Below, one piece after another: positions 15,201 through 64,000 of a stretch of DNA of 64,000 nucleotides; position 1 is the stretch's first letter; every line of letters begins with the position of its first letter. Origin of the DNA: Tribonema minus (lineage: Eukaryota; Sar; Xanthophyceae; Tribonematales; Tribonemataceae); the NCBI GenBank assembly GCA_017506865.1, contig JAFCMP010000021.1, positions 248,001 through 312,000 of the forward strand, given 5' to 3'. The position numbers and the translations under genes were made by a program. The notes under the pieces were generated by a model that was given only the letters and a program-made list of their open reading frames with translations, was not told where the DNA came from and made no database searches.

Positions 15201-18200
15201 TTTGGCAGCGCTGTCTCCATCAGAGGATCGTACGCGATCGTTGGTGCGCCCACGAAAGGATCCACAGGTACCTCGTACCTCTTTGTCAGGAACGGCACTC
15301 AGTGGCTCAAGTCGCGCGTCATCGTGGCCTCCGACGCCGCCACGGACGACTACTTTGGCTGGAGCGTTTCCATTAACGACAGGTACATTGCAATAGCTGC
15401 ATGCTTTTGGGAAGGTGCGCTGACGAACCAGGGCGCAGTGTACCCCGACATGATATCAGCCATGGTAATCACGCCGGGCGCGGTGGTCAACGTGAGGTAC
15501 GGCGAGACCAACACGGGATCTGTGGGAACGGCTACCGTCGCTGGCGGTATAGGAACGGTCACGTACGCGTGGACGTCGACGGGAACGAGTGTCTCGGGGA
15601 TCACGACGCCGGGCCCGCTCTCCAACCTTGCTAAGGGCGTGTACACGCTGACGGCGACAGACTCGACAGGTCAAAGTGCAACGTACGCGTACACGGTCGT
15701 CCAGTACGGTGTGCCGGTGATCGCGCCGGGTCTGATCACTCACGCCACGGGTATCGCGACTGCCAATGGAGCCATTGCCGCTTCATCCGTAACAAACGGG
15801 AGCGGGTCCTACACGTACGCGTGGACGTCGAGCAGCGGTGCTTCCACCATAGCGACGCCGACTACGCTCGCCGCCAAATCCTCCTTACTGCCAGGTCAGT
15901 ACACGCTCACCGTCACGGACACGAACGCCGCGACCACATCGGTGGGCGTGTACGTGTACGATGTGAGTTTTGTGGCATCGCTGAGCACGACGCTCATTGC
16001 ATCAGATCCCGCGACTACGGATTACTTTGGAAACTCCTGCGCCGTTGACGGCCAGTACATGATTGCAGGTGCATACTACAAGACAGTGTCGGCTCTCGCC
16101 AATGCAGGAGCTGCGTACATTTATGTGCGCTCTGACTTTACCGCAACGGGTACGTGGGTGTTTACCACAAAGCTGACGGCGACGACGCCTACAGCTTCAG
16201 AATATTTTGGACAGTCTGTTGCCATCAGCGGCGACACTATCGTGGTCGGAACGCTGTTGTCAGGCATCCGCAAAGCGTATGTGTGGTATCGATCGACGGG
16301 AATGACATGGGTGCAGCAGGGGCCCCTGACGGCATCGGACGGCAGCAGCGGCGACTCTTTTGGGGACACGGTCGCAGTCAACGACAACTTTATTGTTGTC
16401 GGAGCGCCCAACTGGTCACGCAAGACGCCATCGGCGATCGCCGGTTGCGGCGCTGCATATGTATTCATCAGAAGCGGATCAACGTGGTCGCAGCAAGCGC
16501 AACTTGTCACATCTGACCCAGCGCCCAGCGTCCACATGGGGGCGTCTGTCTCCATCAGTGGGTTGTCGATAGTTGCAGGTGCGAGCATGTGGTCCAATGT
16601 GTCGCCGGCAGTGTCGCAATGCGGGTGCGCATACGTCTTCACGAGAAGCGGCACGACGTGGTCGCAGACCGCACAAATCATCGCATCCGATCCTCAGGCT
16701 AGCGCGCTTTTCGGAACATCGGTGTCGATCAGTGGATCATATGCGATCGTTGGGGCGCCCCAGTGGGACCAGACATTGCCGTCAATCACAAACTGCGGAT
16801 GTGCATATGTGTTCTACTGGGATGGCAGCACGTGGGCGCAGCAGGCGCAGCTGGTGAGCGGTAATCCTGCCACTTCCGATTTTTACGGAGGGAGTGTCTG
16901 CATCAGGGGATCGTACGCTCTCGTCGGCGCGTACAACAAGTCTTCTGGTGCTGGCTCGTCATATCTCTTTGTCAGGAACAGCACGCAGTGGCTCAAGTCG
17001 CGCGTCATTGTGGCCTCCGACGCAGCTGCAAGTGACCAGTTTGGCTTCAGCGCTGCAATCAGCGACAAGTACATGGCGATCGGCGCCTACGCGTGGGATG
17101 GCACTCTGACCGACCAGGGCGCGGTATACCCAGGCATGCTTTCAGCTATGGCCATCACGCCGGGTGTGATCACGCCCCTCAGGTATGGCAAGACATACAC
17201 GGGGTCTGTGGGACCAGCGACAGTCAGTGGCAACGTCGGTGCGGTGACGTACTCGTGGACGTCGACGGGGACCGATGTGTCAGGAATCACGACGGCGGGG
17301 CCGCTCTCCAGCCTGGCTCCCGGCACCTACACGCTCACGGCGACAGACACGACCGGCACGCCCATGTCCTATGCATACACTGTCATCCAGTACGGCCTCC
17401 CCCAAATCGCGCCGGGCCTGATCACGCACGCTTCATACGCGCACCCTGACGACGTGGACGCAGCAGGCGCAGTTGATCGCATCCGACCGTCAAGCCTCTG
17501 CAAGGTTCGGTTACGCTGTGTCGGTCAGTGGATCGTACGCGATAGTCGGTGCGTACTCGTGGGACCAGGCGTCGCCCTCCGTCGCAGACTGCGGATGTGC
17601 TTAATAATTTATGTGTTTTTCGCAAACGGAAGCACATGGACCCAGCAGGCACAGCTGACAAGCGACACCCCCACAGTCAGTGACTACATGAGTCGCAGTG
17701 TCAGTATCAGGGGCACGTGCGCAGCTATCGGGGCGTACGGCAAGAACTCATCAGCGGGTGTGTGTTACGTATTCAACAGGACCGGGACACAGTGGGTGAG
17801 GTCGATGATTACTGCGATGGATGCCGAAGCGAACGATCAATTCGGTGTGTCAGCATGCGTCGGCGATAAGTATGTTGTTGTGGGAGCGCAACAGTGGGAT
17901 GGCACCGCGACAGACCAGGGAGCCGTGTATGTCGCGCCGGTCTACGCACCGTTCACGCTGACGACAGCGGGTACGGTGCTGAACGTGACGTACGGCACGA
18001 CGAACACCGGTTATATCGGCGCAGCGGTCATCGACGGGGGAGCGGGGACGGTGACGTACGCGTGGACGTCGACAGGCACCAGCGTTGCGGGCGTCACGAC
18101 GACGGGCCCTCTTTCAGCGCTCGCGGTGGGCACCTACACACTGACTGCCACCGACTCTGCGGGCCAGACGCTGCCAAAGGTATACACTGTGACGACGGCC

Positions 18201-21200
18201 GCGCAGCTCACCATCGTGACTGCAGCGGTGACGTACGCAACGGGCGCGACAACGACTGACGGTGCCATAGCGGCTTCCTCTGCAACGGGTGGGAATGCAC
18301 CGTATACGTACGTGTGGACGTCCAGCACCGGCGCTTCCACCATCACAACACCGACGACGGTTGCCGCAAAGACTTCACTCAAACCAGGCCAGTACACGCT
18401 CACCGTGACGGATGCGTCTGCCATATCCACCACGTGGGTGTATGAGGTGGGATACGCTTCGACCATCACGTCGGCGATCGTGTCGAGCGATCCAGCAGCA
18501 TCCCAATTCTTCGGGTTCTCTGTGGCGTGCGACGGCCAGTACCAGATCGTCGGCGCATACGGCGTCAACGCCAGCGCCGGCGCGGCGTACGTCTACACCA
18601 GGTCAACATTGACGGGCACATGGGTGTTTGCAACCAAACTCGTATCGCCGTCGCCCGCGGCGGGATACAAGTTCGGCGAATCGGTCGCGATCAGCGGCGC
18701 TACGGTTGTCGTGTCACAGCCGAGGTCGGGCACGAGCGGCACGTCGTTCGCCTTCCTCCGTAACAACACGACGTGGACCGAACAGACTGGCGGAACTGCT
18801 ATCCAGTCGGTCACGTCCGACGGGTTCGCGAGTTCCATCGCGATCGACGGCGATTACGTCGTCGTCGGCGCACCCTCGTCCACCAATGGTTTGGCGTTCG
18901 TGTACCTTCGCAGCGGATCGACGTGGGCGCAGCAGGGAAGCGCGCTGGTCGCGTCGGACGCGCAGAGCGGTGCCAAATTCGGGTACTCGGTTTCGATAGC
19001 GGGCACGACGATCGCCGTCGGGGCAAGCAACTGGTCGCGCACGACGCCGTCGGCGATCGCCAACTGTGGGTGCGCGTACGTCTTTGGGAGAGTGTCAACC
19101 ACGTGGACGCAACAGGCTCAGATCAAGGCTACCGACATCCAGGCGTCGGCGGCGTTCGGCGCAGCCATTGCTACCGACGGATCATCAGTAGTTGTGGGGT
19201 CCAACACGTGGAGCCAGTCGTCACCGCCGGTCACGGGATGCGGGTGCGCGTATGTCTTCGGCGGAGGCTCATGGACTCAGCAGGCGCAGCTGAGGTCGGG
19301 AGCACCCGTCGCCAACGCGAATATGGGTGCTTGCGTATCCGTGAAAGCATCGTGTGCACTGGTAGGTGCCGCTTCGGGCGCGTACATGTTCTGTAAGAAT
19401 GCGGCAGCTGCATGGCCGTTGGATCGCTTCACCTACGGTGCGTATAGCGATGCGACGCGCAATTCCGTCGCCATCACCGACACCTACGTCGTCTTCGGCG
19501 ACCCCAAGTGGGACTCTACCACAAACACCGACCAGGGCCAAGCGTATTCGGCGCTCGTCAACCCGCTGCTGCTCACACCGGGGACGATCGGGGCCGGTGG
19601 GAGGATCGGTGCAACCTTCGTCACTGGTGGGTCCAACACGTTCACGTACGCCTGGACGAGCACCGCGACAGCCATCACGTCGACGTCCGCCTCGACGCAG
19701 ACGAAGCTCTCACCGGGGACATACACAATCACCGCGACCGACGTCATGACGGGCGATACCATCGCAAACGCCTACGTCATCACCGCTGGGTACGTCCCGA
19801 TCGTCTACAGCGGTGGGGCTTTGACAAAGAGTCACGGGTCTGACGGAGTGATTGCAGCCTTGACAGTGAGCGGAGGCAGCGGCACGTACACCAACTATGT
19901 CTGGTCATGGAGTGCAGGAGCAACAGCGGTGTCGTCATCCCCGACACCACTTGCAGCGAAAACGGGCCTCGCCATCGGCACCTACACGCTGACAGTGACA
20001 GACTCCAACACGGATGCTGAGACATTCACATTCGTCGTGCTGCCCGCCAACATCAATATCGACCTGGGCACCGTCACAAATGTCGTCACTTACGGAGCGG
20101 CGACTGGCAGTATATCGCTTTCCGGCATCAGCGGCGGCACGGGCGTCTTCACGTATGTGTGGACGTCCACCGGCGTCGGCGCGACCACCGGCTTAGCGGG
20201 AGTCAACGACCTAAAGACTGCCCTTAAAGCGGGAGTGTATACGTTGACTGTCACAGACGACATCGGAACGCGTGCCGTATACGCATTCACAGTGTACCAG
20301 CCGCTTTTCCTAGGTCTGCAACCGTCCGCATGCACAGCATTCGATGCTCTAGACGGTGCGGTCGTGGCAACGGTTGACGGAGGTCACACACCCTTTTCGC
20401 ACTTTTGGAATGAGGGGACGAGCGCGACTTCGTACTCCACACTCGCAAATGCGACTGGACAGAACCTGAGCAATGTCGGCGCAGGAGACTACACCGTCAC
20501 CGTAAAGGACGCGATCGGTGCGACGCTCACAGCGTCGGCGCTGGTCGACGAGCCGCAGCAGACGGCCACGGTATCAAGCGTCACGCCGATCAGCGCGACC
20601 ATTTCATGGCCTGTCGCGCGCGATGTGGGATCATCTCTGTACTCGGTCTTGGCCACCTTCGATGGCGTCGTCACATCTACATCGAAGATAACGGCGTCGG
20701 GATCTGCGACGCTCACAGGCCTTCAGCCGCTGACGACGTACGAGGTCACCGTTCAGAAGTTCATCAGCAGGGCGCGCGCGACCGTCAGGCGCATTTCATC
20801 GACATCGGTGACAACGCTGGCCGACGCCGTTGTTAACTTTGATAAGGCATCGCTGCCAACATCAACGGACGCAGCAACCGGTGCTCCATCTTACGACATA
20901 GGCGAGGCGCTGAAGACTATCACTGCACCCCTCGACACTGTGTTCGCCACTGGCGATGTCGTGAACGTCAAGCCGCCCGCGCGTCGGACGACATCTGCAA
21001 CGTTTGTGCGCCAGCGCGACACCTACTCGACCGCGAAATTCACCAGTGTGATGCTCCCGTTCGCGCCTACCGAAGGCACAGATCAGTCCATCGTATTGCA
21101 AGAGAAGACAAAGAGCATATCCGCCACCGTCGCGTACGACAATGTCACGGACACGATCGCCATCGACGGCGCCACGTACTCGACCGGCGACATGCTGAGG

Positions 21201-21230
21201 ATAGGCAACTATCGCGTCAGCGTAGTATAG
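12279..21230 (+). CDS. giant SprB / FG-GAP repeat surface protein, interrupted by TAG
   Basis: One frame of about 2,980 codons from ATG 12279 to the stop at 21,228-21,230, broken only by TAG at 14,970-14,972; both sides are in the same frame. It alternates SprB-type beta repeats (GAI..STVSGGSGSFTYAWTS, LLPGQYTLTVTD) with FG-GAP-like beta-propeller blades (SFGSSVAIDGDYIVAGA, GCGCAYVF.RSGSTW.QQAQL). At least four large SprB-plus-propeller modules are visible. The last ~500 residues have further SprB repeats, then a fibronectin-like segment (SATISWPVARDVGSSLYSVL). There is no obvious signal peptide or membrane anchor. It is probably a fibre or surface adhesion protein (inference). From 17,438 to about 17,615 the frame is wrong while another frame encodes a perfect propeller blade; two indels compensate. 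Confidence 0.8.
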
Positions 21231-26012: not shown

Positions 26013-26172
26013 CATCACTGTGACCTCCAAATAGTGCAGTGGATGCACGCGGAAGGGTGTCTGTGCAGCGATCAGGCGTGCATTGCCGCAGCCTGCTGTG
26101 GGCACCTTGAGGTGCTGCAGTGGCTGCATAGTTGGGGTTGCCCCTGGGGTGCACGCTTCATGACGGACATGT
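26013..26172 (+). pseudogene. ankyrin-type repeat remnant
   Basis: About 50 codons read LQIVQWMHAEGCLCSDQAC and AACCGHLEVLQWLHSWGCPW, the 'W.....GC....' repeat form common in giant-virus ankyrin-like proteins (compare 29,901-31,589). There is no start or extended frame, and it overlaps the 3' end of the HNH gene on the other strand. It is a fragment of a lost gene. Confidence 0.55.
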
Positions 26173-27246
26173 TCGCTCTTCCTTACGCCAAGCCTTGGAG
26201 TCGTCCTCGTTCGCATACGCCCATTTGTATCCGTATGCATGATTCACGCGCCGTCTGCAACAGGCGCTAATGCTACTTGCTGTTGCCTTGCGGTTGCAAC
26301 GCCTAACATATATGATAGCTTCAGCTATCGATGTGAATGTCCAGATCTTAACTCCCTCCTGCGAAAACATACATACCGGCTTGTAAGGAATCAGCCCGGT
26401 GTTGTTGGCATGCTGTGTATTTTCAGCTGCTGAACACCACTCCAAGTTGGTATAATCACTGTTGGAAGGATCTCCATCGATGTGATTGATGAACTTCTTA
26501 TTAGAATTGGTGGGAGGATCTAAATGAGTGAATCCAACCAGACGATAGACGAGATACTGACGTTTTCCAATATCAACAAGACGGCGCCCATCCCACCTCC
26601 TGGACCCATTTGTAAAACGTCCACTCGGTAGTTTGACCCACCCCCCAAATTGACTCACGCTATGTCCCTCCGCTCCTCTGATGCACTCTGGAGGTATGAC
26701 ACCAAAATTCCCAGCGTTGCTGGGAGTCCACCATGCCACTGTGGCTCCAAACAAGGTGTCACCGCTATTGATCGCGATGCGTACCTTAGCTGTGTTGTAA
26801 TCACTGGATGGTTTGCCAATTGAAGCTAACCATGCGGTGGAAGAGCTGTACTTTACTGGCTGCTCATTATCCAACACGCTGATGGCACGCTGCGCCCCAA
26901 TGTGTTGAGCTGGGCGAACTTGGTTTTGACGTTGCTGTTTCTTATCAGCCCAGCGCAAGTTCACAAGGCGGTGGTCGTTAGGACACCGAGGGTCACTATG
27001 GTCAACAGTGTACCCGTGGCCAGGCCAAGGGCAGAATGCAGTGAGTAGCTGAATTTGTGCAAGAACTGCATGCCGCTTGCCTTCAACGCAGAGAGTTATG
27101 CCTCCCTTCTTTCTATGTTTGATTTGTTTGCCGCTTTTGATACTAAAGAGGCACCCTTCATTTGCATCGGCGTAGTAGCCCGGGAAGTCTCTCAGGATTG
27201 CCTTGTTCGGGTCATTATTGTAAAGCTCGGGATATGGCCGTTCCAT
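26158..27246 (-). CDS. HNH endonuclease with two HNH-type motifs
   Basis: 362 residues from ATG 27246 (MERPYPELYNND). Two HNH-type zones are visible. The first is YTVDHSDPRCPNDHRLVNLRW (about residues 95-115). The second, better one is FINHIDGDPSNSDYTNLEW followed by CSAAENTQHA (about residues 252-281), which matches HNH_3-type homing endonucleases. The C-terminus (VKIWTFTSIAEAIIYV...) resembles a NUMOD-type helix-turn-helix DNA-binding module. It is free-standing, not inside an intron. It is probably a mobile, site-specific nuclease. Whether it has any link to the introns in the capsid gene is unknown. Confidence 0.85.
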   Translation of the reverse strand: MERPYPELYNNDPNKAILRDFPGYYADANEGCLFSIKSGKQIKHRKKGGITLCVEGKRHAVLAQIQLLTAFCPWPGHGYTVDHSDPRCPNDHRLVNLRWADKKQQRQNQVRPAQHIGAQRAISVLDNEQPVKYSSSTAWLASIGKPSSDYNTAKVRIAINSGDTLFGATVAWWTPSNAGNFGVIPPECIRGAEGHSVSQFGGWVKLPSGRFTNGSRRWDGRRLVDIGKRQYLVYRLVGFTHLDPPTNSNKKFINHIDGDPSNSDYTNLEWCSAAENTQHANNTGLIPYKPVCMFSQEGVKIWTFTSIAEAIIYVRRCNRKATASSISACCRRRVNHAYGYKWAYANEDDSKAWRKEERTCPS

Positions 27247-27576
27247 TTTGAGTGCGCAGACGTGTGGCACACGTTGTGAGGGAAGTGAACTGTGCACTCT
27301 GTCTTGTGCAAGGTATACATTTATTTGCAGCACCTGTGAACGCACAAAAACTCGGACCCAGATTCACGATTAAATTACGCAATGCATACCGGAATCCGAA
27401 TTCTTGTTGTACATCTGTTTTTGCTGCTGCAGCCTTTTTCCACACTCAAATGATCTTGCCATGCAGTTTCATAACATATTCGTGCACAATCAGCTATTAT
27501 CATACGAGAAAATGGCAGGGAGGTAGCGCGTTCCCCGAGACGCTTTTTCTTTCTATAATTGAAGTAAACAGTGGAG

Positions 27577-35685: not shown

Positions 35686-35893
35686 CAACTTATAGTGACA
35701 ATTCCCTTTTCTTTTGTGTGACCGTGGTATCACTTTCATAGCAGCCGTGGCGTTGACCGTAGGAGCCAGCGCTGCAATATTTGGGGGGTGGCAGTACAGG
35801 TTTCCGAATAGTATATGTGATTTGCACAGCGAGATTCGTGCCCGATTTCGGGATATACTGTTGATATACATTAAAGTATATAAATCTCACAAG

Positions 35894-35930
35894 AGATTCA
35901 AGTTCAAGTTCAGATTCAGATTCAGATTCG
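35894..35930 (+). promoter_or_regulatory. AGATTCA repeats upstream of the cyclin gene
   Basis: Consecutive 6-bp AGATTC/AAGTTC units directly before ATG 35933, themselves preceded by TATA-rich sequence (GTATATAAATC at about 35,876-35,886). Similar repeats occur upstream of other genes in the window. Confidence 0.5.
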
Positions 35931-35932
35931 GC

Positions 35933-36916
35933 ATGAATAAACTCAGTATATCATTACCTTCCGTACTGACCTCATTGAGATCACTTCACTCATACAAACT
36001 ACACACGACGATGCGAGTCATCAGCAAGGCCGGACATCTGGCATGCTTTTCAAGCCTGCATTCGCGGAATCATGCAGAGTGTACCGGCGCCAAGAGCGTC
36101 CGCAAGAATACCCCTCGACAGGTAGCTCCGAGATCCGATCGGCATCAAGAGAAACAGCCTGAGCACGCGGACGCTTTTTCGGAATATGAACATGACACAT
36201 ACAGCAGACACAAGGAGCTGGAGGTGATGTACGCTCCTCGAAAGGGTACTGGCATATCACCCAGCAGGCGCTGCGGACTGTTCGACTGGATCATGGCAGC
36301 ACGCAAACGCCTGATGCTTGAGCCATCTACGCTCCATATGGCTTTCAGCATAGCCGACCGCTTCTGCGCAGTAGATCGTGTCGACGACACAGAGCTCAGG
36401 TTGTTCGGTGCAGCGGCCTTGATGATAGCCTGCAAGTACGAGGAGACGGTGGTGCACTCGGTTCGTACGTATGTGTACATATGCGACATGTCATACCACA
36501 AACTGGAATTGATCGATATGGAGAGGCGAATATTGGAGCGGCTGGAGTACCGTCTCACAGTGCCGACGACGTACACGTTCATGGCATATGCCATGAGGGA
36601 CACGAGCGGCACGCCTGCGCAGCTCAAGAGAGCCAGACGATATGCTGAATCAGCTCTGCGAGACCATCGCACCTTGGCTCACTTGCCCTCTGAGATAGCA
36701 GCTGCCGCCATTTACCTCTCCAGGGCTCAAGACGTTGGACACGTGCAGGCACAGAAGACCGCACTGAACGGGATGTGCTCCGTGTCACACGTAGCCCTCG
36801 CTCGGTCTGTGAACCACATGATCAAAGTGCTCGCCGGCGCGAAGGTGGATAGAGACAGTCAGTGCGCGCCGGTGACGAGTGACCACTTCCATCCCCTGCT
36901 TGTAGCAGCTTGCTAA
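35933..36916 (+). CDS. cyclin-like protein
   Basis: 327 residues from ATG 35933; ATG 36011 is an alternative start. After a basic head, the cyclin box begins around residue 110: LFDWIMAARKRLMLEPSTLH corresponds to the 'R.iLvDWl..v...f.l...Tl' opening of A/B-type cyclins. It continues with FSIADRFCA, then LRLFGAAALMIACKYEET, then MERRILERLEYRLTVPTTYTF. A second, less conserved fold half (LPSEIAAAAIYLSRAQ) follows. The expected Lys/Glu pair that contacts the kinase is visible in CKYEE. It presumably binds a host cyclin-dependent kinase to push the cell cycle (inference). AGATTC repeats and a TATA-like box lie directly upstream. Confidence 0.85.
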   Translation: MNKLSISLPSVLTSLRSLHSYKLHTTMRVISKAGHLACFSSLHSRNHAECTGAKSVRKNTPRQVAPRSDRHQEKQPEHADAFSEYEHDTYSRHKELEVMYAPRKGTGISPSRRCGLFDWIMAARKRLMLEPSTLHMAFSIADRFCAVDRVDDTELRLFGAAALMIACKYEETVVHSVRTYVYICDMSYHKLELIDMERRILERLEYRLTVPTTYTFMAYAMRDTSGTPAQLKRARRYAESALRDHRTLAHLPSEIAAAAIYLSRAQDVGHVQAQKTALNGMCSVSHVALARSVNHMIKVLAGAKVDRDSQCAPVTSDHFHPLLVAAC

Positions 36917-37960: not shown

Positions 37961-39643
37961 ATGTGCGGCATTCTGTTCCACTCGTGCGCCGCCGGCGACA
38001 CCCTGCGTGCTGACGCTGTCCGAGATGCAGCTGAGCTCATACAGCACCGCGGACCCGACGGGATGAGTACTCAGTACTACACCATAGGCGCCGGTGGTAA
38101 GAATGCGCGCAAGTGCGTCATGAGCTTCTGCCGTCTGGCCATCATTAACTTAAGTGTGTCGGGCATGCAACCATTCACACTCGGCCCCAGGAGGCTGATA
38201 TGCAACGGCGAAATCTACAATTACAAGGAGCTGCAGCGGGAGCTGGGTGTGAAGAACCTCAAGTCAGATGTTGATATCATCCTGCACATGCTGGTCAATG
38301 ACCGGCACGGAGAATGTCTCGCCGACATGATGCGCTCGGCGTGTCAAAAACTGGACGGGGACTTTGCCTTTGTGACGACAGAAGACGTGACAGGTGAGGT
38401 GATGGCCGCACGCGACTGCGTGGGAGTGAGACCGCTGTTCTACGGCACGGTGAATGGCGCCATCGTCAGCTTCGCATCCGAGGCCAAGGCCCTGGTGGAT
38501 CTGTGCGACTCTGTAGCTGTCTTCCCGCCGGGCCACTTCTGGACTAGCAGCACAGGCTTCTGTAGGTACATGGACGTATATCTCGCCCCCACCTCGGTAG
38601 CAGCTCTAGACACAGGCGCAGACTCCACGGATCGCTCCGTCATCGCTGCACTTCTCACAGATGCAGTGCGCAAACGCGTAGAGCACACCGACCGCCCCCT
38701 AGCCTTCCTGTGCAGCGGAGGGCTGGACAGCGCTCTGGTGGAGTCCATCGCGGAGCGCATGTACCCCGACCGCGACCTGCACGCGTTCAGCATTGAGTAT
38801 TGCGACCAGTCCATCAGCGAGGACGCGCTGTACGCGACAGAGCTGTTGAAGCGACTGCCGCATGTGCAGCACACACGCGTTCAGCTCACGAAGGCAGATA
38901 TAGCGGAGTCGCTAGAGGAGATCGTAAGAGTTTGCGAGACGCCGGACACGACGACGCTGCGAGCGGCAATGCCCATGTACCATTTGGCGCGCTACATCAG
39001 CGACAACACAGACTACAAGGTCATATTATCTGGTGAGGGCGCCGATGAGCTCTTCGCGGGCTACTACTACTTTTCCCGAGCTCCGCACGGGCATGCAGTC
39101 ACTCAGGAGACACGGCGGCTAGTGAAGAACACGCACATGTTCGATCTCCTCCGAGCTGACCGTTGCTTCGCAGCTCACGGCCTGGAGATCAGAGTACCGT
39201 TTTTGGATGTCCATCTCCTGAGGCACGTGCTGGCGACCCCCGGTGAGTGGCGCATGCACGAACACGGGTTGGAAAAGGCGTTGTTGCGCGACTCGTTCTA
39301 TGACGTCGAGCCATTAGAGGCGAGCGGCGTACTGCGCCGCGGCAAGATGCGGATGACTGACGGAGTAGGCAGCGGGATGGCGTCTTACATCGTCGACGTG
39401 CTGAATGATGTCCATCTGCCACAGAGTGACAGCGGTGCGGCGCACATCTCAGCAGAAGAAAAGCTGAGAGTGGAGAAGGAGAAGATGGCGCGCTGGTTCT
39501 TTGAATTCTATGAGGAAGGCAAGGGATCCCGGAACTGGGTCATCTCCCGGGACATGCCGGACTGGGCATCCGAAGAGCGAGAGTCACTACATCAGAAGGC
39601 GCCACCGATTTCTGTGGGGGGGTGCGCTGCTTTGTGGTGGTAG
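37961..39643 (+). CDS. asnB: glutamine-hydrolysing asparagine synthetase
   Basis: 560 residues, the family's usual length. MCGILFHS provides the N-terminal catalytic Cys2 of the class II glutamine amidotransferase domain; IQHRGPDG, RLAIINLS, and ICNGEIYNY are its other signature strings. The synthetase domain carries the ATP-pyrophosphatase loop FLCSGGLDSALV (about residues 249-260), then SEYCDQ-like and DELFAGYYYFSRAP (about residues 365-378), and LEIRVPFLDVHLL. All motifs needed to make asparagine from aspartate, glutamine and ATP are present. Giant viruses including mimiviruses carry such genes, probably to adjust amino-acid or sugar/nitrogen supply during infection. Confidence 0.95.
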   Translation: MCGILFHSCAAGDTLRADAVRDAAELIQHRGPDGMSTQYYTIGAGGKNARKCVMSFCRLAIINLSVSGMQPFTLGPRRLICNGEIYNYKELQRELGVKNLKSDVDIILHMLVNDRHGECLADMMRSACQKLDGDFAFVTTEDVTGEVMAARDCVGVRPLFYGTVNGAIVSFASEAKALVDLCDSVAVFPPGHFWTSSTGFCRYMDVYLAPTSVAALDTGADSTDRSVIAALLTDAVRKRVEHTDRPLAFLCSGGLDSALVESIAERMYPDRDLHAFSIEYCDQSISEDALYATELLKRLPHVQHTRVQLTKADIAESLEEIVRVCETPDTTTLRAAMPMYHLARYISDNTDYKVILSGEGADELFAGYYYFSRAPHGHAVTQETRRLVKNTHMFDLLRADRCFAAHGLEIRVPFLDVHLLRHVLATPGEWRMHEHGLEKALLRDSFYDVEPLEASGVLRRGKMRMTDGVGSGMASYIVDVLNDVHLPQSDSGAAHISAEEKLRVEKEKMARWFFEFYEEGKGSRNWVISRDMPDWASEERESLHQKAPPISVGGCAALWW

Positions 39644-54555: not shown

Positions 54556-54810
54556 CTACAGCTGCGGTGTCGGTGTCGGCGCTCTGAGCTCGTCCATCTC
54601 GTCTCGCATCTGCATGAGTCCCGTCAGAGCAGGATATATATCTGGCCTGGATGTAAACAGCAGCCGCAGCATCTGTTTGCCATCATCGTCGGTGTCTGCC
54701 GCGCCCATCCTCGAATTGAAGTCCTGCTCCTTCAAAATCACGTCGAGGGTCTGAACGAGGGTCAAGAACTGCTCGACGGAGTGAAAGCGCTTGCTTGTAT
54801 CACCTTCTTT
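54556..54810 (-). pseudogene. truncated paralogue of the 47,180-48,786 gene
   Basis: The segment FLTLVQTLDVILKEQDFNSR followed by DTDDDGKQMLRLLF is about 80 percent identical to the middle of the gene at 47,180-48,786 (FLVLIQTLDVYLKNQDFNAR). Both flanks lack homology; the frame ends soon after. It is an internal fragment left by duplication or deletion. Confidence 0.65.
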
Positions 54811-56576
54811 TACTGAAACTTCCACAGGTGCCCCCTCTCCTGCAGGCCACCATCGATCGCCTTGTACAATGTCGAATAAGAAATACGATACTTGGTCGTC
54901 ACCTCCGACAGAGAGTTATATGTTGCAACAACGTCACCGGTGGCAGGGTCGATCTTTATGAAGCGATGGTCAGTCATCCTGTTTTGCCGGGTGTGGGGGA
55001 TCTCTCCACCACTGTTGACAAACTCATCAATCATTTCCTTGGTGCACTTGCTGAGGGGAATGTACTTGCGCCCCCGTACAAGCAGGCCGGCTTTGATGTT
55101 AGCGTACAGCCTCCCACCTGTGCTGGCCATGCCCAGTTCATCGGCAATGTCTCGACGCGAGCAGTAAGCTTTGTCGATCTTCTCTTCATGGGCGTCCAGT
55201 CGGGCCAATGCTCCTACGCTGACCTCAACCTTGGGCTGTGTCTCTCCGATGTTGACAAACATTTCAGGATCGCATTCTCTGTCAATGTAGTTCCATCTGT
55301 GCCCGATGTATGCGACGTGGTCGGTGATGGCACTGTTCACGCCAAACCTTGACACCACGCCGAGGCTCTCGTCCCGAAGCATATCACTCATGCAGTTGTA
55401 TGTCTTGATCCATGTATGTCCATCGGTACTGTACTGTTGCACCCTGCGTCCACGTGATTCCTCACTGTACTGCTGGACCTTGAGTGCACGTGATGATATC
55501 TCCAGAGAGCTGCTGGCAACATTAGTGTCCTCATCCATGTCCTCAGGTTCAGATGAGTCGCTCGCAATGTGTGAATCAGCTGCTGACGTGGTGGCATCAG
55601 CCCCTTCTGGTATGGCGACATGAGTTTCAGCTGGCATGGTGGCCTGCACCGCTGCTGGTATCGCGGCGCCTGCGCCTAGCTGCTCAGTGCGCTCCAACAG
55701 TAGGGACATGTTACTCTCAATTGTCTTGAGTCGCTTCTCAACCGGATTATCGATTTTTCTGCAGTACTGATTGCGGTGGTAGTAGCGCGCTATGTGGAGG
55801 ACTCTTTGGAGCTCATCATCAGTGACCATGAAGGCCTCTGTTGATCTCGCGTCGCCAACTATGTCCCCTGTGTGCTGCAGCTTCTTGATGTCCCTATGCT
55901 TCTGCAGTATTCTCTCCATCAACACCATCTGCTTAACTTTCTCTTTGGCATCCAATGTGGGGTCACACTCATAACATTGGATGACATAAAAGTCGCCACC
56001 CTTGTACTTGTTCCTCTGCTCAACCGAACGCCGTCGTACATCATTTGATGATCCTATCTTGATAATTGTCTTGTCACCAACCCCAATAATTTTGGCAACG
56101 TAAACGACATCTTTTCCTTCGAAAGCCACAATCATGGTATCGTGACGCACAGAGTCCTGGCAGCTTTCGTACTTGAGTTTGAGAGTGGCCTCGGTGGTTG
56201 CAGTTGCCTCTGCTACAGCATCTTGCTTCATCTTCTCAATCTCATCATCGAGCACATACTGTCCAGTGTTGTTGATAGCGTCAATGACGTCACACAGCCA
56301 CTCCTGAAATGGAGCCGCCTCAGGCTTTCGAGACCGCATGAGGAGTTTGTACATGCCGCGCTCTGTCAAGTATGTGGCTTGCTGGGTCCCACCAAGAGTG
56401 GAAGTACTGCTTACGACCCTCTCTTTTTCGTTAAAGCCCTCCATAGACATGCGAAAATTGGTGAGTTTTAGCACCTTCCCCACATCAGACGCCTTGAACG
56501 TAGGCTTGCCATCGCGCATAACCACATGCACGTCGTACCTGGCATCACCGAACGCAAATGTCTTGAGCACGTCCAT
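54810..56576 (-). CDS. BRO-N protein with GIY-YIG-like middle domain
   Basis: 588 residues from ATG 56576 (MDVLKTFAFGDARYDVHVV); the frame is open to ATG 56765. Residues ~1-110 are a BRO-N DNA-binding domain: GKPTFKASDVGKVLKLTNFR, then LTERGMYKLLMRSRKPEAA and FQEWLCDVI. A coiled coil follows. Residues ~145-215 (VVYVAKIIGVGDKTIIKIGS, then R..SVEQRNKYKGGDFYVIQ) resemble the T5orf172 / GIY-YIG-like domain. The C-terminal third has NUMOD-like repeats (YNSLSEVTTKYRISYSTLYK). Such proteins are expanded families in giant viruses and may bind DNA or regulate transcription. Confidence 0.8.
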   Translation of the reverse strand: MDVLKTFAFGDARYDVHVVMRDGKPTFKASDVGKVLKLTNFRMSMEGFNEKERVVSSTSTLGGTQQATYLTERGMYKLLMRSRKPEAAPFQEWLCDVIDAINNTGQYVLDDEIEKMKQDAVAEATATTEATLKLKYESCQDSVRHDTMIVAFEGKDVVYVAKIIGVGDKTIIKIGSSNDVRRRSVEQRNKYKGGDFYVIQCYECDPTLDAKEKVKQMVLMERILQKHRDIKKLQHTGDIVGDARSTEAFMVTDDELQRVLHIARYYHRNQYCRKIDNPVEKRLKTIESNMSLLLERTEQLGAGAAIPAAVQATMPAETHVAIPEGADATTSAADSHIASDSSEPEDMDEDTNVASSSLEISSRALKVQQYSEESRGRRVQQYSTDGHTWIKTYNCMSDMLRDESLGVVSRFGVNSAITDHVAYIGHRWNYIDRECDPEMFVNIGETQPKVEVSVGALARLDAHEEKIDKAYCSRRDIADELGMASTGGRLYANIKAGLLVRGRKYIPLSKCTKEMIDEFVNSGGEIPHTRQNRMTDHRFIKIDPATGDVVATYNSLSEVTTKYRISYSTLYKAIDGGLQERGHLWKFQ

Positions 56577-56888
56577 AGTGAATGTGAGGGCCTCAATGCT
56601 GATGCGCCAATATTTTCTTCGTAGCACCTGGAACGCAGTGACGTGAGGTCTTGCTGTGTCAATCGGGATTGTGATTGTTATGCCGTACAGGATATTCAAT
56701 ATCATGGTGTCATCAATTTGTATGTGAGGACTGTATCTGTGTGCACCCAGAACCTGAATGGACATGATTTGGAGTGACGAAGTAGCTCATTCTGAATGAA
56801 CCAATGTTATGAATGAACCAACGTTTCATCAGCGCTGTTTATTTTCTGTTTGTATCTACAACCGAGCATATAGACTCTTTTTGAAACA

Positions 56889-59800
56889 ATGACGGCATAA
56901 TTCCTGAATACCGTCAACAGGGGGCGGCGGGCCCGTGAGGGTCCTTTCAACGAAGGGTGACATAACGTCCTGCCGTGGTACCCCCTAGTCGGCCTTGTGC
57001 ATCGTGCTAGCTTACGTTACAAAGTAAGCCAAGTGGTCACAGGTGGTACGCCAGCGATAGCTGACACCTAAGAGTAACCGCAAGGGTACTCAAACAGGCA
57101 AGACCCAAGAAAACGTGTCAAAATTCATGTGCAAAGTGGACAAGACCGTCGGTTCTCGTGCCCCGCGAGGGATGCAGCAGGATCGCTACAGACTGGATCC
57201 TGGATCGGTGTTCTGCCTTCCTAAAAAGGCCAGAATGCTTAATGTACAGTCGACCCGCGGCAAGTTGGCTTTCAGAGAAGTAAGTCCGCGAGCCGGTGCG
57301 CAAGTGATTGAGCTGATTGAAAATTGAAGCTCGGGAAGCTTGCGGTCTGTATCTGCAAGGTACAGATGATTTGTGATCAGGAGGTGAATATATCACGCCT
57401 TCAACAGGGGGCAGCGGGCTTGCGAGAGTCCATCTTAAGGGCGAATAAACGCTTCTGCTGTGATACCCCCTAGTCGGCCTGCACATCGTACTAGTTGCTG
57501 CAAAAGCACAACAAAGTGGTGGCAGGTGGTACAGTGGCGACAGTCAACACCTCAAAGTAGCCAAAAGTCTATTTTGACAGGCGAGCTTTGTGAAAACGGT
57601 CAACATTCATCGTGAGGTGGACAAGACCGTCGGTTCTGGTCTCTCGTGAGGGAGACAACAGGATCGCTACAGACTGCGTCACAAAGCCGTTTTCTGCTTC
57701 TTGATTGCAGAAGGCGTAATGTACAGTCGGCCCCCAGTAAGTTGGCTTCCGCAATGAAGGAGGTCCGCGAGCCGGTGCTTGTGTGATTGAGCTGATTGAA
57801 AATTGAAGCTCGGGAAGCACAAGGCCCATACCTAGGAGACTTAGATGCGCATGAAGTTGCACTGGGCCTCCTCAAGTATGGGTGACAATTGGTGATTCAG
57901 ATAGCCGCCCGTGGCAGCCAAGATGCTGTCCTTAACGATAACCCCACTCACACTCTCTTCAAAGCAGTGCACACGAGGTTCACTTCGTGCGCCTTAGACG
58001 ACGAGTTCCAGGAGCTCTCTACCAGCGGCTTTGCCTCCACCAGCACTGCTACCATATCCCGCTACGGTGATCTGGTGAGCCGCATAACCCTAGAAATTGT
58101 TCTCCCCCCCCTCTCTGCCCCAGATATCCCTGACACCAGCTCCGGTGCGGGCGCCGGCGCCCATTATGCCGACACCGCCGCCTACTACGTGAACAGCATC
58201 GACTTTGCGGCTTGGGAGGATGTGATCCTCGAGATCGGCGGGTCCACCGTCGACCAGCTGTTCAGCGACTTCTGCTTCATCTATGAGGAGCTCGCCGGGC
58301 GCGCGGGCATGCGCCTCGAGGAGGCCATCGGGCGCGTGCCGTTCAGCGCCGATGTAGATGAGGACCTCGCCGAGAAGAGCGCACGTGAGCAGACCCTATA
58401 TGTCCCCCTTCCGCTGTGGTTCAGTAAGTACCAACCCGCTACATGGGGATTAGCTTTGCCTATAGTTGCACTCAGCTTCCATGAGATCAAGCTGAAGCTG
58501 AAGACCCGTTCCATCGCCGAGTGCGTCTCCGTAGTTTACAAGGACAGCGCCGGCGACTGGCGCCTGTCCGACCTAGCCCCTATCAACGCCACCACAGGCA
58601 CCGCGCTCGTCAACAGCGACATGAAGCTGCGGCTCCTAGTGAGCTTCGTTTATTTAGATGTGACAGAGCGCAACGCTATGAGCAGTGTTGCCCATTCTTT
58701 CCTCATAAACGTAACTCAGCGCCAGGTGATGGCCGTCGCCGCCGGATCGTTCTCGAAGATTGAAAACAAGCTGTTTTTCAACCACCCGTGTTCCTCGCTC
58801 CTTTGGTACATGCGACCCCAGGACTGGAACCTGGAGGGCGGCCGCCGCCGTTTTTCGTGCGGATACAAGGACAGATTTGACTTTAGTCATCAGGAACAGG
58901 GGACGGTGGACGCCACCAAGGGCCTCGCTTGGGGCGACACCGTTGACCCTATCACGACGGCCTCGCGTTCTTTAAACGGTCACCAACGCTGGCCACAGGA
59001 CCAGAACGCAGTATATTTCCGCGTGTTGACGCCCTATACGAGCTGGCGAACGATGCCCACGACCAACATATACACGTACTCCTTTGCGCTGCAGGCTCAA
59101 GACTGGCAGCCGACAGCGCACCTCAACATGTCACGCCTAAAAAAAACTGGGCTGAAAAACGGTAGGGATGCAGGAAGTGAGATAACTGCATCAAAAAACC
59201 GATTAGTGGTCTCAATTAAAATCCACAGCCGTTAGTGATGTGTACAAACCCGTACACGTTGCGACATTGCCAAATTGCGGGAAACCCCTTAGTCTTGACT
59301 ACCACTTCATGTGAGAAATCGCATGAAGGAACACGGTTAATGGCCGTACACAAAGGTAACAATGTCAAGAATTTTGGGCAACCCGCAGCCAAGCTCCTAA
59401 CCTCGCCATGTGAGAGTACGGAGAAGGTTCAACGACTAAATGGTAATGGGTCTGAGAGGGCTCACAACCCTCTACGAAGGCTTAAGATATAGTCTAGTCC
59501 CTGATGAACAGCATTCATCACAAATATCCCGAAAGGGAGGGTATAAACGAGATCACGTGTCACTAGGACTCACATTTGCCGCTGGCATCAAGGCCAGCGA
59601 GCTCATCGCGATGGTGGAGAGCTATAATCTGTTGATAAACGATTGTCAACAACAGCAGGGCGCAGAATCGCAAGGTTCTCATGGAATCAAGAATGGACTT
59701 GATGCGCTGGTACCTGCTAGTCAGCGGCACTGTTCCCGGGCGGCTTTCGAGCCGTGGGAATGCCGTGGTACGCAAGCGACAGCTTGCACCTAATTTGCGC

Positions 59801-61118
59801 ATGTCGCAAATGAATAGGCAAGGAAAGTGAAAACGTGTCAAAATTCTGACCTGCGCTTGACGCAGTGAGGGACAAGACCGTCAGTATAAGCACACTGCGA
59901 GGTGTGTGGAAATTGCTATCGATCGGGTCACTTTTCGGTGGAGTCTCTGACTCTGCTTAATGTTCGATCAGGCCACCGTAAAATCAATTTCTACAAAAAT
60001 GGGGTGAGCGGTGCTTCCCGTGATCGGCAGTGTTGAAAAGGCACGGCCGGGAAGCGGGGAGGTCATCTGCCTCTCTCTCTTAGGGAGTGCGGATGACGAA
60101 TAAAGAATCGCGAACGGTAAACACCCCCAAGCCGTTAACAGCGGGCAGCGGTGCTGTGAGGCACCTCATCAAACCGGGATTTTACCCGGTGCTGTGTTTC
60201 CCGCTAGTCAGCGGTGTTCTCGGGCGGCTTTCGAGCCGTGGGAATGCCGTGGTACGCAGATGACAGTCTGCACCTAATTTGCATTGTGCAAATGAATAGG
60301 CAAGAAGAGTGAAAACGGTCAAAGTTCTGACCTGCGCTTGACGCAGTGAGGGAAGAGACCGTCGGATGAAGGACATCGTGAGGTGTTTGGAAATCGCTAA
60401 CGACTCGGTCACTCATCGGTGGGCTCTGATGATTCAGAGCCTGCTTAATGTAGAGTCTGGTCACCATAAAATCCGTTCCTTGGAATGGGGTGAGTGGTGC
60501 TCTCCGTGATTGGACACGTGCTGAAAAGTCACGACCGGGAAGCGGGGAGGTTGTGTGCTGATACAGCGCACAATGATATATGTTGGGAGGTGGATTTATT
60601 TCAAGCCTTCAACAGCAGGCAGTGGCATCGCGAGAAACCTTGAAAACAGCGAATAAACGCTGTGCTGTGCAACCTGCTAGTCGCTCATGTAGTACCGGGC
60701 GGTTCTTTATGAGCCGTGGTCACATGGGGGTACGTGGACGACAGTCCACACCACCATTTTGTGTCGAGCAAAATGGCCAGGCAAGGAAAGTGAAAACGGT
60801 CAAAAGTCGTCAACCCTGGCAGGGGCTGGCGGGCAAGACCGTCGGTATTAAACACAACCGCGAGGTGTGTGGAAATCGCTATCGATCGGGTCACTTTTCG
60901 GTGGAGTCAATGACTCTGCTCAATGTTCGATCAGGCCTGCATAAGTGTTTCTAAACGCGAGTGCAGCTTCCTGTGATCATCTTGCACTGAAAAGGTGCGG
61001 ATGGGAAGCAGGGAGGGCGTCTCTATCAAGGCGACGTCGGTATGGGGATATCACTGCGCGAGGTGCGCCCTGTGAATGGGAGCCTCCTATATCTCTTTCG
61101 TTAAAGTTCTCGAATTAG
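56889..61118 (+). CDS. major capsid protein (double jelly-roll), seven exons
   Basis: Predicted exons: 56,889-56,896; 57,376-57,385; 57,892-59,138; 59,550-59,636; 60,106-60,118; 60,583-60,591; 61,101-61,118 (463 residues plus stop, normal for the family). Exon 3 alone carries the double jelly roll: IAARGSQDAVLNDNPTHTLF near its start, YGDLVSRITLEIVLPPL, VILEIGGSTVDQLFSDF, LPLWFSKYQPATWGLALPIV. Exons 1-2 add M-T-A-S-G-G, giving the usual 'GG..Q' opening. Exons 4-7 supply the usual C-terminal end, 'SYNLL...G.GGL.FSN' and a stop. Every junction keeps the reading frame. A CATATAGA box lies 5' of exon 1 (about 56,867). As unspliced DNA, the 57,892-59,235 frame alone would lack both ends. Confidence 0.92.
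56897..57375 (+). ncRNA. MCP intron 1, group I-like
   Basis: 479 nt, ends in G. Exon end GACGGC pairs with guide ACCGTC (just before AACAG), giving a 6-bp P1 with C-A instead of the usual U-G at the splice site. It shares CAACAGGGGGC...ACCCCCTAGTCGG, CAAGACCGTCGG and a terminal GGGAAGC hairpin with introns 2, 4, 5 and 6. No ORF. Confidence 0.75.
57386..57891 (+). ncRNA. MCP intron 2, group I-like
   Basis: 506 nt, ends in G. Exon end GGAGGT pairs with guide GCCTTC (U-G at the splice site), followed by AACAG. A GGCCCA...TGGGCC hairpin lies near the 3' end. Close relative of intron 6, with the identical guide. No ORF. Confidence 0.8.
59139..59549 (+). ncRNA. MCP intron 3, canonical group I intron
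   Basis: 411 nt, ends in G. Exon end GCCT pairs with GGGC (U-G at the splice site). Conserved core elements are recognisable: P (AATTGCGGGAAA, 59,273-59,284), Q (CAACCCGCAGCCAAGCTCC, ~59,379), R (GTTCAACGACTAAATG, ~59,427) and S (AAGATATAGTCTA, ~59,484). This matches IC/IE-type group I introns. No ORF. Confidence 0.92.
59637..60105 (+). ncRNA. MCP intron 4, group I-like
   Basis: 469 nt, ends in G. Exon end GTTGAT pairs with guide GTCAAC (U-G at the splice site), followed by AACAG. Same five-member family as intron 1. No ORF. Confidence 0.78.
60119..60582 (+). ncRNA. MCP intron 5, group I-like
   Basis: 464 nt, ends in G. Exon end AACGGT pairs with guide GCCGTT (U-G at the splice site), followed by AACAG. 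Very similar to intron 4 across the middle (CTGACCTGCGCTTGACGCAG shared exactly). No ORF. Confidence 0.78.
60592..61100 (+). ncRNA. MCP intron 6, group I-like
   Basis: 509 nt, ends in G. Exon end GGAGGT pairs with guide GCCTTC, followed by AACAG, identical to intron 2's guide and target. Its core (GAAAACGGTCAA, CAAGACCGTCGG, GGGAAGC hairpin) is as in the other four. No ORF. Confidence 0.78.
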
Positions 61119-62092
61119 GCTTAAGTATGCTCTTTAGCATGGTGAAATGCGTTTTGGAGATCTCGAATGTTCTCCTATATTGAATAACACGCTACGCGCA
61201 CTACTAAAGCGCAAATGCCTTACACAACCTACAACTCGTATTTGTCGCACTGCGCCCCTTGCCTGCTGCTTATCCTATTGCCGAGTTGACTGCATTGGTT
61301 GCTGTTGTTGCGCCCTGCGCACTTCCCCGGGGTCCCAGCTCCACATGCAGGGGACCCCCCACTGCGACGCCTGTTTCAGAGACGTCTTGATATGTGCGCA
61401 CAGGCAGCGGCATTAAGACCCCAACTCTAACGTAATCACTACTACTTCAACACTCTTGTGAGCTTCATACAAGCGCAATAAGCACGCCCTTTCTGCAACA
61501 GTGAGGATATGTGAAGTACTGTATGATGATAACATCAAAATTACCTATCCTATGCGATCTTCAGGCAATCATACATCGCTAAGGTGCTCAAGGTAATCAA
61601 CATTTTATCATCAATGAGGAGGTGAGATGCTCTTCAAATCGGTACGCATATAGTGCTTACGAACGGGGGACCACGTGATGTCCTCGTCCTTAGGGAGGTT
61701 GAATTGTATAAACTGGTGATTAATTCAAAAGGCGTCCAAGCATGGGTGCATCTGTGGAGCACAAGATGTTCTGCTCTTCTTTCTATCCATGTCTACATAA
61801 TGCTTGCAGGTTGCTGCTGACCCACATATCGCATGCTGCTGTGGTCCCTGGAGCTACCTTGGCCCAGCTGCTCCAAAAGTGTCTCCGTTGGCCGGCAAAA
61901 TAAGGGATGACAGGATTGTGTGTTCTGAATGAGAAAGGCATCGCGTGTTCAACGGAGAAAGACATCACTCCACTACCGCAGACGTAAGTGATATATGCTA
62001 ATATTAATATTACGCGCTTGGCGACGTCAAAATATTATATTGCGATATACCTAATACAAACAACCTGTGCTCATTCACAACCATTGCAAACG
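61119..62092. other. intergenic stretch with a decayed copy of the 11.1-11.5 kb locus
   Basis: No intact gene is supported. About 61,385-61,490 resembles 11,374-11,480 (shared words GGCAGCGGCAT, AAGACCCC, AAGCACGCCC), and CGGGGTCCCAGCTCC at 61,329 recurs at 33,540. It looks like gene debris. The rest is AT-rich and featureless. Confidence 0.4.
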
Positions 62093-62827: not shown

Positions 62828-63571
62828 ATGATGGCACTGGAAATAATTGATGAGACATATGATGATGGCGCACACACTCCCACGAAGATAGAGCTGGCCG
62901 TCATAGACAATAAGACGCTCAAGACAACGAAGATGGTCGACGGGAACAAATGCAAGGATGACGCCCCGAACTGCACTGTCAATACATTCACTTGTGAAGG
63001 TACAAGCTACCGGGTAAGATGTGCAAATGAAGGCACAAGCATGTTCTTTGATGCTGCAGACATTGGCAGTCTGCTGGGACTGAGCAATATACGTGAAAAT
63101 ATTAGGTTCTTCGGCCCGGAGGAGAGAGTGCAGAGACCAGTGATGACACGCCGCGGCCTTCAGTCCAAAACGATGTTGACCAACGATGGGGTCAGGCGAC
63201 TTGTTTGCCGCAGTCGCAAGCCAAATGCGGCAGCACTGGCCAAGTCTCTTGGTGTTGTGGTACACCGCAATCATTATGTGACGGCTGAGGCAGATACGCT
63301 GTCATTCTTGATGCAGGCTTTCGCAGGTGAAGAGTGTCATGCACAATACCCTGCCGGGCCGTACTTCATCGACTTATACTTTCCTCGCGTCAAAGTTGCC
63401 GTTGAGTGTGATGAGGTATCAAGTCATGGCAGATGCAAATTAGCAGCTGACCTGACACGCCAGAGAACCATCGAGGAGAAACTAGGATGTATATTCATTC
63501 GTTTTTGCCCTCAGCAAGATGATTTCTCAATGGCGGCGCTGGTCAATTTGGTGTGGCTCTCCCTACGCTGA
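62828..63571 (+). CDS. BRO-N domain fused to a PD-(D/E)XK-like nuclease domain
   Basis: 247 residues from ATG 62828. After a ~50-residue head, the BRO-N domain shows SYRVRCANEGTSMFFDAADI, LLGLSNIRENIRFF and LTNDGVRRLVCRSRKPNAA. From about residue 165 comes a different fold: YFIDLYFPRVKVAVECDEVS (Asp, then Glu-x-Asp-Glu), then DLTRQRTIEEKLGCIFIRFC. This is the 'iDl.fp....iE.DG..H...D..R...L...G...iR' pattern of DUF559/Vsr-type endonucleases. All acidic residues expected for metal binding are present. Role unknown; selfish nuclease or DNA-processing factor are possibilities. Confidence 0.75.
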   Translation: MMALEIIDETYDDGAHTPTKIELAVIDNKTLKTTKMVDGNKCKDDAPNCTVNTFTCEGTSYRVRCANEGTSMFFDAADIGSLLGLSNIRENIRFFGPEERVQRPVMTRRGLQSKTMLTNDGVRRLVCRSRKPNAAALAKSLGVVVHRNHYVTAEADTLSFLMQAFAGEECHAQYPAGPYFIDLYFPRVKVAVECDEVSSHGRCKLAADLTRQRTIEEKLGCIFIRFCPQQDDFSMAALVNLVWLSLR

Positions 63572-63736
63572 GGGAGATATGATAGTGATCAAGAGACATA
63601 CCTCAAGTGCACAGCCAATCATGGACTGCGTCATGCATTGCGGTATGTGTTTCCTTTGATTGAACTCATGCATTGTAATCATGTTCATTGCATGACTTCA
63701 TTATTGCGTTGTTGCAAGCTGCGCGTCACCAATGCC

Positions 63737-64000
63737 ATGTCTGACACCATTCGCGGCCAGCAGGATTGTGTTTTCCTCCGAGAAACTGGGCTTTACCAAA
63801 TTGTGATCAGGTCCAACAAGCCTGCTGCACGACCTTTCCGGAAGTGGATAGGCCATGTTGTGTCCACATTGCGCAAGGAGGGCAGCTACAATATGAAGGC
63901 AGCAATGGAAGAGATGAACGTCGACAACGACCAAGAGCTCGCCGCTCTGCGTGAGAAGTATACCGACCAGATGTACCTGGACACTCACAAATCATTGCTT
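63737..64000 (+). CDS. BRO-N protein, C-terminal half of domain; runs past window end
   Basis: From ATG 63737 the frame encodes CVFLRETGLYQIVIRSNKPA, then FRKWIGHVVSTLRKEGSYNM, the second half of a BRO-N domain, then a charged helix; no stop before the window edge. The first half of the domain is not found upstream, so the gene is 5'-truncated or rearranged. It is the complement of what the fragment at 62,093-62,278 lacks, but the two are separated by another gene. Confidence 0.7.
   Translation, partial: MSDTIRGQQDCVFLRETGLYQIVIRSNKPAARPFRKWIGHVVSTLRKEGSYNMKAAMEEMNVDNDQELAALREKYTDQMYLDTHKSLL

Follow-up and report, generated by a model that had tools for sequence, protein, structure and literature searches.

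A giant-virus capsid gene in the genome of Tribonema minus, predicted to be interrupted by six group I introns

The capsid gene and its predicted exons

The stretch of DNA analysed here, referred to below as the window, comprises 64,000 nucleotides of the alga Tribonema minus (bases 248,001-312,000 of contig C21, in a genome of 158 Mb and 554 contigs; the names C90, C112, C179 and so on denote other contigs of the same assembly). It contains a gene for the major capsid protein (MCP) of nucleocytoplasmic large DNA viruses (NCLDV), recognised from a frame at 57,889-59,235 that matches the Pfam domains Capsid_N (6.7e-33) and Capsid_NCLDV (5.3e-29). As an earlier note on this DNA had pointed out, the frame lacks both ends of an MCP. 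This is clear from sister copies of the gene, which begin with MTASGG-VIQIAA or MPASGG and end with LLIIANGLGGLKFSN or LLVIRDGLGGLRFSN, or similar, before the stop codon. The note had placed the missing ends in separate small exons and predicted exon lengths of 8, 10, 1247, 87, 13, 9 and 18 nt, and these coordinates were reproduced exactly. The seven predicted exons join in frame to give 1392 nt, or 464 codons including the stop, and a protein of 463 residues, the same length as that encoded by the copy on C40 (P0008). From the sequence comparisons that follow we are confident that the gene encodes the MCP of a giant virus endogenous to Tribonema minus, and that it is interrupted by six predicted group I introns of two lineages.

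The predicted map is as follows, with everything on the forward (+) strand; pair counts refer to the helices P1 to P10 described in the next section.

56889..56896, +, exon 1, 8 nt (start codon; MT and two bases of the Ala codon); MTASGG is contiguous in C90 and C112, and the cut can slide rightward by up to 2 nt
56897..57375, +, putative group I intron A, 479 nt, unseen by Rfam; ends in G; P1 5/6 (C.A at the cut), P10 3/5, P3 6/8, P4 6/6, P6 6/6, P7 5/5
57376..57385, +, exon 2, 10 nt (end of the Ala codon, SGG); contiguous in C90 and C112, differences all synonymous
57386..57891, +, putative group I intron B, 506 nt, unseen by Rfam; P1 6/6 (U.G), P10 5/5, P3 8/8, P7 5/5
57892..59138, +, exon 3, 1247 nt, MCP body with Capsid_N and Capsid_NCLDV
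59139..59549, +, group I intron C, 411 nt; RF00028 match at 59182-59523
59550..59636, +, exon 4, 87 nt; homologous to the contiguous DHVSLG...YNLL codons of C112 and C40
59637..60105, +, putative group I intron D, 469 nt, unseen by Rfam; P1 6/6, P10 5/5, P3 8/8, P6 5/6, P7 5/5
60106..60118, +, exon 5, 13 nt (IANG region); contiguous in C90, with same-site introns on both sides in C179
60119..60582, +, putative group I intron E, 464 nt, unseen by Rfam; P1 6/6, P10 5/5, P3 7/8, P6 4/6, P7 5/5
60583..60591, +, exon 6, 9 nt (LGG); joined directly to the last exon in C90 and C179
60592..61100, +, putative group I intron F, 509 nt, unseen by Rfam; P1 6/6, P10 4/5, P3 8/8, P6 5/6, P7 5/5
61101..61118, +, exon 7, 18 nt (LKFSN and stop); these codons are unbroken in C90 and C179, where they differ only synonymously; C112 reads I in place of L

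Identical bases at the two boundaries of introns A-D allow each cut to slide by 1-2 nt with the product unchanged, while the boundaries of introns E and F are unique. The public protein model of the gene (P0001) starts inside intron A (57115-57327), skips the start of exon 3 and reads into intron D; it is wrong, since it includes intron sequence and misses the true ends.

The sister copies provide natural empty sites against which the map can be read. Searching the genome with the translation of the long exon gave 18 matching places, on C21, C90, C179, C112, C40, C223 (two copies), C144, C485 and C541, and protein identity to the window MCP is 92% for both C90 and C179, 83% for C112 and 64% for C40. 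Every one of the six window sites lacks its intron in one or more sister copies, where the codons run on uninterrupted, and a seventh site (G) is occupied in sisters only.

Site A (MTA/SGG): present in the window and C179; empty in C90 and C112
Site B (SGG/VIQ): present in the window, C90 and C112; empty in C179
Site C (SRL/DHV): present in the window, C90, C179 and, truncated, C541; empty in C112
Site D (LLI/IANG): present in the window and C179; empty in C90 and C112
Site E (ANG/LGG): present in the window and C179; empty in C90 and C112
Site F (LGG/LKFSN): present in the window and C112; empty in C90 and C179
Site G (IAA/RGS): present in C90 (L037 3155-3695) and C179 (L038 3198-3740); empty in the window and C112

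The codons LKFSN and the stop, which the earlier note had expected to restore the usual C-terminus ending F-S-N, are contiguous in both C90 and C179. Introns at the same site resemble one another to varying degrees. Identity to the window intron is 79% for A in C179, 86% and 59% for B in C90 and C112, 90% for D and 85% for E in C179, and 67% for F in C112; the two G introns are 93% identical. Lateral transfer of introns between copies was considered, given that the same-site introns of the window and C90 or C179 are 79-90% identical while synonymous sites differ by 56-57%. We do not claim it, because the ∼195 nt from the last exon onward are also 76% identical and synonymous sites are near saturation.

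An intact second MCP gene elsewhere, with this one unexpressed, was what the earlier note had said would count against its proposal. Two further genes do bear on this, namely an intronless frame on C40, running from MPASGG through LRFSN to the stop, and a copy on C223 (L042) with GT-AG introns of 116-130 nt (four of four tested). They are, however, more distant and at other loci, and leave the gene map uncontradicted. The related MCP genes L041, L042 and L043 (two on C223, one on C144) are all fragmented by short introns, the GT-AG test applying to L042. C485 gives the same matches as C144, and the two look like one locus assembled twice. C541 (L045) holds a truncated 3' relic of an MCP gene with a partial C-type intron.

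Selection on the coding sequence was assessed separately for the long exon and for the gene ends. For the long exon (409-415 codons per pair; the copies on C223, C144, C485 and C541 were left out), the ratio of nonsynonymous to synonymous change (dN/dS) relative to the window is 0.056 for both C90 and C179, 0.106 for C112 and 0.26 for C40. The microexons were tested through nucleotide differences between copies in the first six and last 16 codons. All 13 differences from C90 and all six from C179 are synonymous, as are 10 of the 14 from the more distant C112. On the strength of these changes we reject the idea that the microexons are chance matches. The main exon, by its dN/dS, and the microexons both show selection at the protein level.

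Evidence for group I introns

We delimited 16 introns in four MCP copies, of which 13 belong to one family with members at sites A, B, D, E, F and G (five in the window, eight in sisters) and three are of the C type; the truncated intron on C541 was left out. The earlier note had proposed that all six window introns are group I and that four of the exons are microexons of 8-13 nt, and had suggested a search against Rfam as a check. This reading is favoured by our analysis, and the check itself gave a divided answer. Intron C is the only window intron to match RF00028 (82.6 bits), and the Rfam group II families have no match at E values up to 10 in 56700-61300, where RF00028 is the sole match. 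Matching a library model such as RF00028 shows whether an intron can be detected and does not define group I, and introns A, B, D, E and F were placed by covariation instead.

For each helix, the pairing of a strand with its own partner was compared, over the 13 introns of the family, with its pairing when the partner was swapped from another intron. In P3, one strand consists of the 8 nt up to and including the G of a GAAAAC motif, and its partner lies 3 nt past the first P7 strand. Here 99 of 104 pairs form with the true partner, compared to 60% with swapped partners, and there are 11 distinct strand pairs with many compensatory changes. P7 is fully paired (65/65 vs 77% swapped) and P6 nearly so (71/78 vs 75%); P4 is also complete (78/78 vs 92%) and is near-invariant, hence weak as evidence.

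The pairing between exon and guide (P1) had likewise been predicted, together with a G at the end of each intron, and both predictions hold up well. The guide lies directly upstream of a conserved AACAG-type motif, and its pairs with the exon form in 76 of 78 cases, against 69% for swapped partners, with full matches in only 8/136 swapped pairs. The base pair at the cut is U.G in 11 of the 13 introns and C.A in the remaining two, both at site A. The bases upstream of the guide pair in addition with the 3' exon (P10; 58/65 vs 42%, full matches in 5/148 swapped). With the cuts as stated, 15 of the 16 introns end in G. Assignment of A, B, D, E and F to group I is thus supported by the covariation of the pseudoknot and not by Rfam.

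Several observations weigh against this interpretation. The first is that introns A, B, D, E and F gave no match to RF00028 even at E values up to 10. The swapped controls are also high for P4, P7 and P6, because their strands vary little. In intron A the cut is marked by C.A, and both P10 (3/5) and P3 (6/8) are weaker. The P1 of the C introns is uneven, with 4/6 in the window, 5/6 in C179 and 6/6 at a different place in C90, all from a search for the best of 77 offsets, a procedure that was not used as evidence for the 13-intron family; with a free offset, P10 reaches 3/5 in two of them and 4/5 in one. Intron B of C112 (L039 3561) ends in A at the boundary used elsewhere, and a slide of 1 nt gives G. 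Four of the 14 end-codon differences from C112, falling in two codons, are nonsynonymous. Finally, the selection described above may predate viral integration.

Splicing, alternative explanations and spread of the introns

If these assignments are correct, the transcript would be matured by the introns themselves, comprising one Rfam-recognisable lineage (intron C) and a second, organelle-like lineage (A, B, D, E and F) lacking any recognised homing-endonuclease domain. Each guide would pair with the last six bases of the preceding exon and usually also with the start of the following one, and the P3-P7 core would cut and ligate. Exons 2, 5 and 6 would each serve as the 3' exon of one ribozyme and then as the 5' exon of the following one. 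Splicing at the RNA level, its autocatalytic nature and its continuation today in the window copy are what we infer from these patterns; the selection may be older than integration.

The most serious alternative is that the gene is a decayed relic, the virus being dead, the introns no longer splicing and no MCP being made now. This is compatible with the gene map, and we regard it as a real possibility, if somewhat the less probable one. It would suit the chromosomal location, the truncated relic on C541 and the possible lack of a terminal G in intron B of C112. In contrast, the long exon is still open with its low dN/dS, P1, P3 and P7 are intact in five window introns, and intron C retains its Rfam match.

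Spliceosomal introns with non-canonical sites have been proposed for seven introns of the Faustovirus MCP gene (PMC6247863). A chromosomal gene can use the spliceosome, and the MCP copy on C223 does have GT-AG introns. However, introns A-F begin with AT, GA, AA, AA, AA and GG and end with TG, TG, CG, AG, TG and CG, none of the six has GT-AG boundaries at any permitted slide, and the pseudoknot and the exon-guide pairing would be left unexplained. We consider this explanation very improbable for the window gene. Much the same can be said of joint removal of A+B or D+E+F as composite units with the microexons skipped. In the very short exons 2 and 6, P10 of one intron overlaps P1 of the following one by 1 and 2 nt, respectively, and introns B and F have an identical guide and exon target, so that mis-splicing is possible. 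With such an overlap the two helices would be in competition, which may impose an order on splicing. The microexon residues are nevertheless kept under synonymous change in C90 and C179, and are uninterrupted in the intron-minus sisters, which makes skipping highly unlikely. That only intron C is a ribozyme, the rest being non-functional insertion, would account for its being alone in matching Rfam, and can be set aside almost entirely in view of the empty sister sites, the exclusively synonymous end-codon changes relative to C90 and C179, and the covariation.

Returning to group I introns, we searched for their relatives. A scan of the genome with a pattern of the core gave 12 matches, all of them MCP introns on C21, C90, C112 and C179, and none in a reversed control; 12 of the 13 family introns were found, intron E of the window being missed by one base. 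RF00028 matched the genome in at least four places, all C introns, among the 26 of 1072 candidates that were scored. The public protein P0002 (jgi, ena), an MCP 85% identical, has in residues 452-509 a translated D/E-type intron following the same codon as at site E, and on this ground the introns seem to occur outside this genome.

Viral contigs scanned with the core pattern yielded seven stretches. Only one, on the IMG/VR contig L050 (2586-2626, minus strand), has the whole core (P3 8/8, P6 6/6, P7 5/5); the other six are without the P7 motif and look like chance. Scanning viral contigs with MCP patterns gave one stretch with a single-protein pattern and 90 with an alignment pattern, none of which was confirmed. 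The L050 intron lies in a cytochrome b gene and shares with the 13-intron family the spacing of P3, P4, P6 and P7 and the J8/7 motif. Like the members of that family it is unseen by Rfam, which reports two other group I stretches on the contig, one above and one below the cut-off. Unlike the window, L050 is AT-rich, and translation with TGA as Trp gives matches to the cytochrome b, LAGLIDADG and GIY-YIG families; it is probably mitochondrial. When the intron stretches were scanned with Pfam for homing endonucleases, none of 11 open reading frames of at least 60 aa reached a curated cut-off for any family, and there was one weak match, to DUF4905 (E 0.075).

An unrooted tree of the 13 family introns (434 of 647 columns) groups D, E and F together (support 99.5/100). 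Introns at the same site pair for A (92.1/76), B of the window and C90 (97.7/94), D (89.5/90), E (81.4/77), F (100/99) and G (99.3/100), while intron B of C112 stands apart from the other B introns. The seven sites are confined to the two ends of the coding sequence, within 36 nt of its start or 127 nt of its end, for which the chance is ∼3e-7 if sites are uniform, a value calculated post hoc. Guide matches inside the long exon are few (0-5 per intron; zero for B, D and F), so the availability of targets may explain part of this clustering.

Transposition at the RNA level may have carried the introns from site to site along the gene; that group I introns can spread by reverse splicing is an accepted notion whose experimental proof is incomplete (PMC3679873). 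As a tentative proposal, more likely wrong than right in our estimation, the MCP mRNA could be a hotspot in which an organelle-type group I family with no recognised endonucleases spreads by hopping at the RNA level within one gene. The single clade of D, E and F and the position of all seven sites near the ends of the coding sequence speak for this. Against strictly local hopping, intron G, although at the 5' end, is separated in the tree from its neighbours A and B and lies on the D-E-F side (99.4/99).

Viral setting and comparison with known systems

The window also carries other genes in long uninterrupted frames, among them the following.

1838-3325, 12243-21230, 26158-27345, 35714-36916 and 37961-39643: long frames, probably virus genes, for a hybrid histidine kinase, two large FG-GAP proteins, an HNH endonuclease, a cyclin and an asparagine synthase
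54810-56765, 62828-63571 and 63638-64000: BRO-N-type proteins (Pfam) flanking the capsid gene

Two of the three BRO-N-type flankers are above the Pfam cut-off; the product of 62828-63571 is just below it, and also has a weak match to MTES_1575 below cut-off. VLTF3 is matched once each on C21, C90, C112, C179, C9 and C445, and twice on C223. Taken together, the MCP frame, the gene content of the window and the VLTF3 genes indicate large endogenous giant viruses in this genome, and the MCP gene sits in an endogenous virus of the alga and not in a free virus genome. A group of xanthophyte viruses has been named xanthoviruses and proposed as the sister of phaeoviruses (PMC13236599, PMC12993054). 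The virus described here is probably phaeovirus- or xanthovirus-like, a placement drawn from the host, the label FirrV-1-B50 and these papers.

A review states that nuclear group I introns occur exclusively in ribosomal RNA genes (PMC3679873). In contrast, the 16 introns delimited here as group I lie in capsid genes at four chromosomal loci, though these are viral in origin. The copies with and without introns amount to a natural experiment on the gain, loss and possible within-gene hopping of group I introns, and the GT-AG introns of C223 are a different solution in a related MCP gene of the same genome. In practical terms, a search relying on Rfam only may overlook introns of this type, and viral capsid genes may be annotated wrongly as a result. 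In the open-licence literature, represented mostly by titles and the beginnings of abstracts, there is no description of these introns, of the microexon layout or of the plus and minus copies; MCP sequences of Tribonema minus have been used earlier to root trees (PMC13236599).

As the earlier note had stated, group I introns in giant-virus capsid genes and the multi-exon MCP gene of Faustovirus are already known (PMC6247863). Its description of the present gene as exceptional is partly right: the density of introns, the microexons, the chromosomal setting and the plus/minus sites are unusual, but a larger number of introns and a smaller exon are each known from other genes. The MCP gene of Faustovirus E12 spans 17 kb and has 12 introns averaging 1,273 bp, five called group I and seven spliceosome-like, with a smallest exon of 13 bp and GIY-YIG frames in two introns (PMC6247863). 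It resembles the Tribonema gene in being a giant-virus MCP gene split by many introns, some of them group I. Unlike that gene of a free amoeba virus, however, the Tribonema gene is 4.2 kb long. Its six introns measure 411-509 nt and encode no recognised endonuclease, its smallest exons have 8-10 nt, and empty sites occur naturally. The same Rfam-invisible type of intron might explain some of the 'non-canonical' introns of other giant-virus MCP genes, for example in Faustovirus. The Mimivirus MCP gene (PMC2688009) likewise contains introns, but only two, with three exons, as cited in PMC6247863.

Microexons isolated by gain of group I introns are also known from placozoan mitochondrial cox1, in which a 1-nt exon lies between two group IB introns (PMC5436844); that case is mitochondrial and involves one microexon, whereas four are predicted in the viral gene of Tribonema. 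The endogenous phaeovirus EVEc of Ectocarpus has an intron-bearing MCP gene in an endogenous virus of a related alga, but its introns are spliceosomal (PMC13236599). Finally, mirusvirus MCP genes show a similarly fast gain and loss of introns among related genes, with 4-22 per gene (PMC12768974), although in that unrelated virus phylum the introns are mainly spliceosomal and of the GT-AG type.

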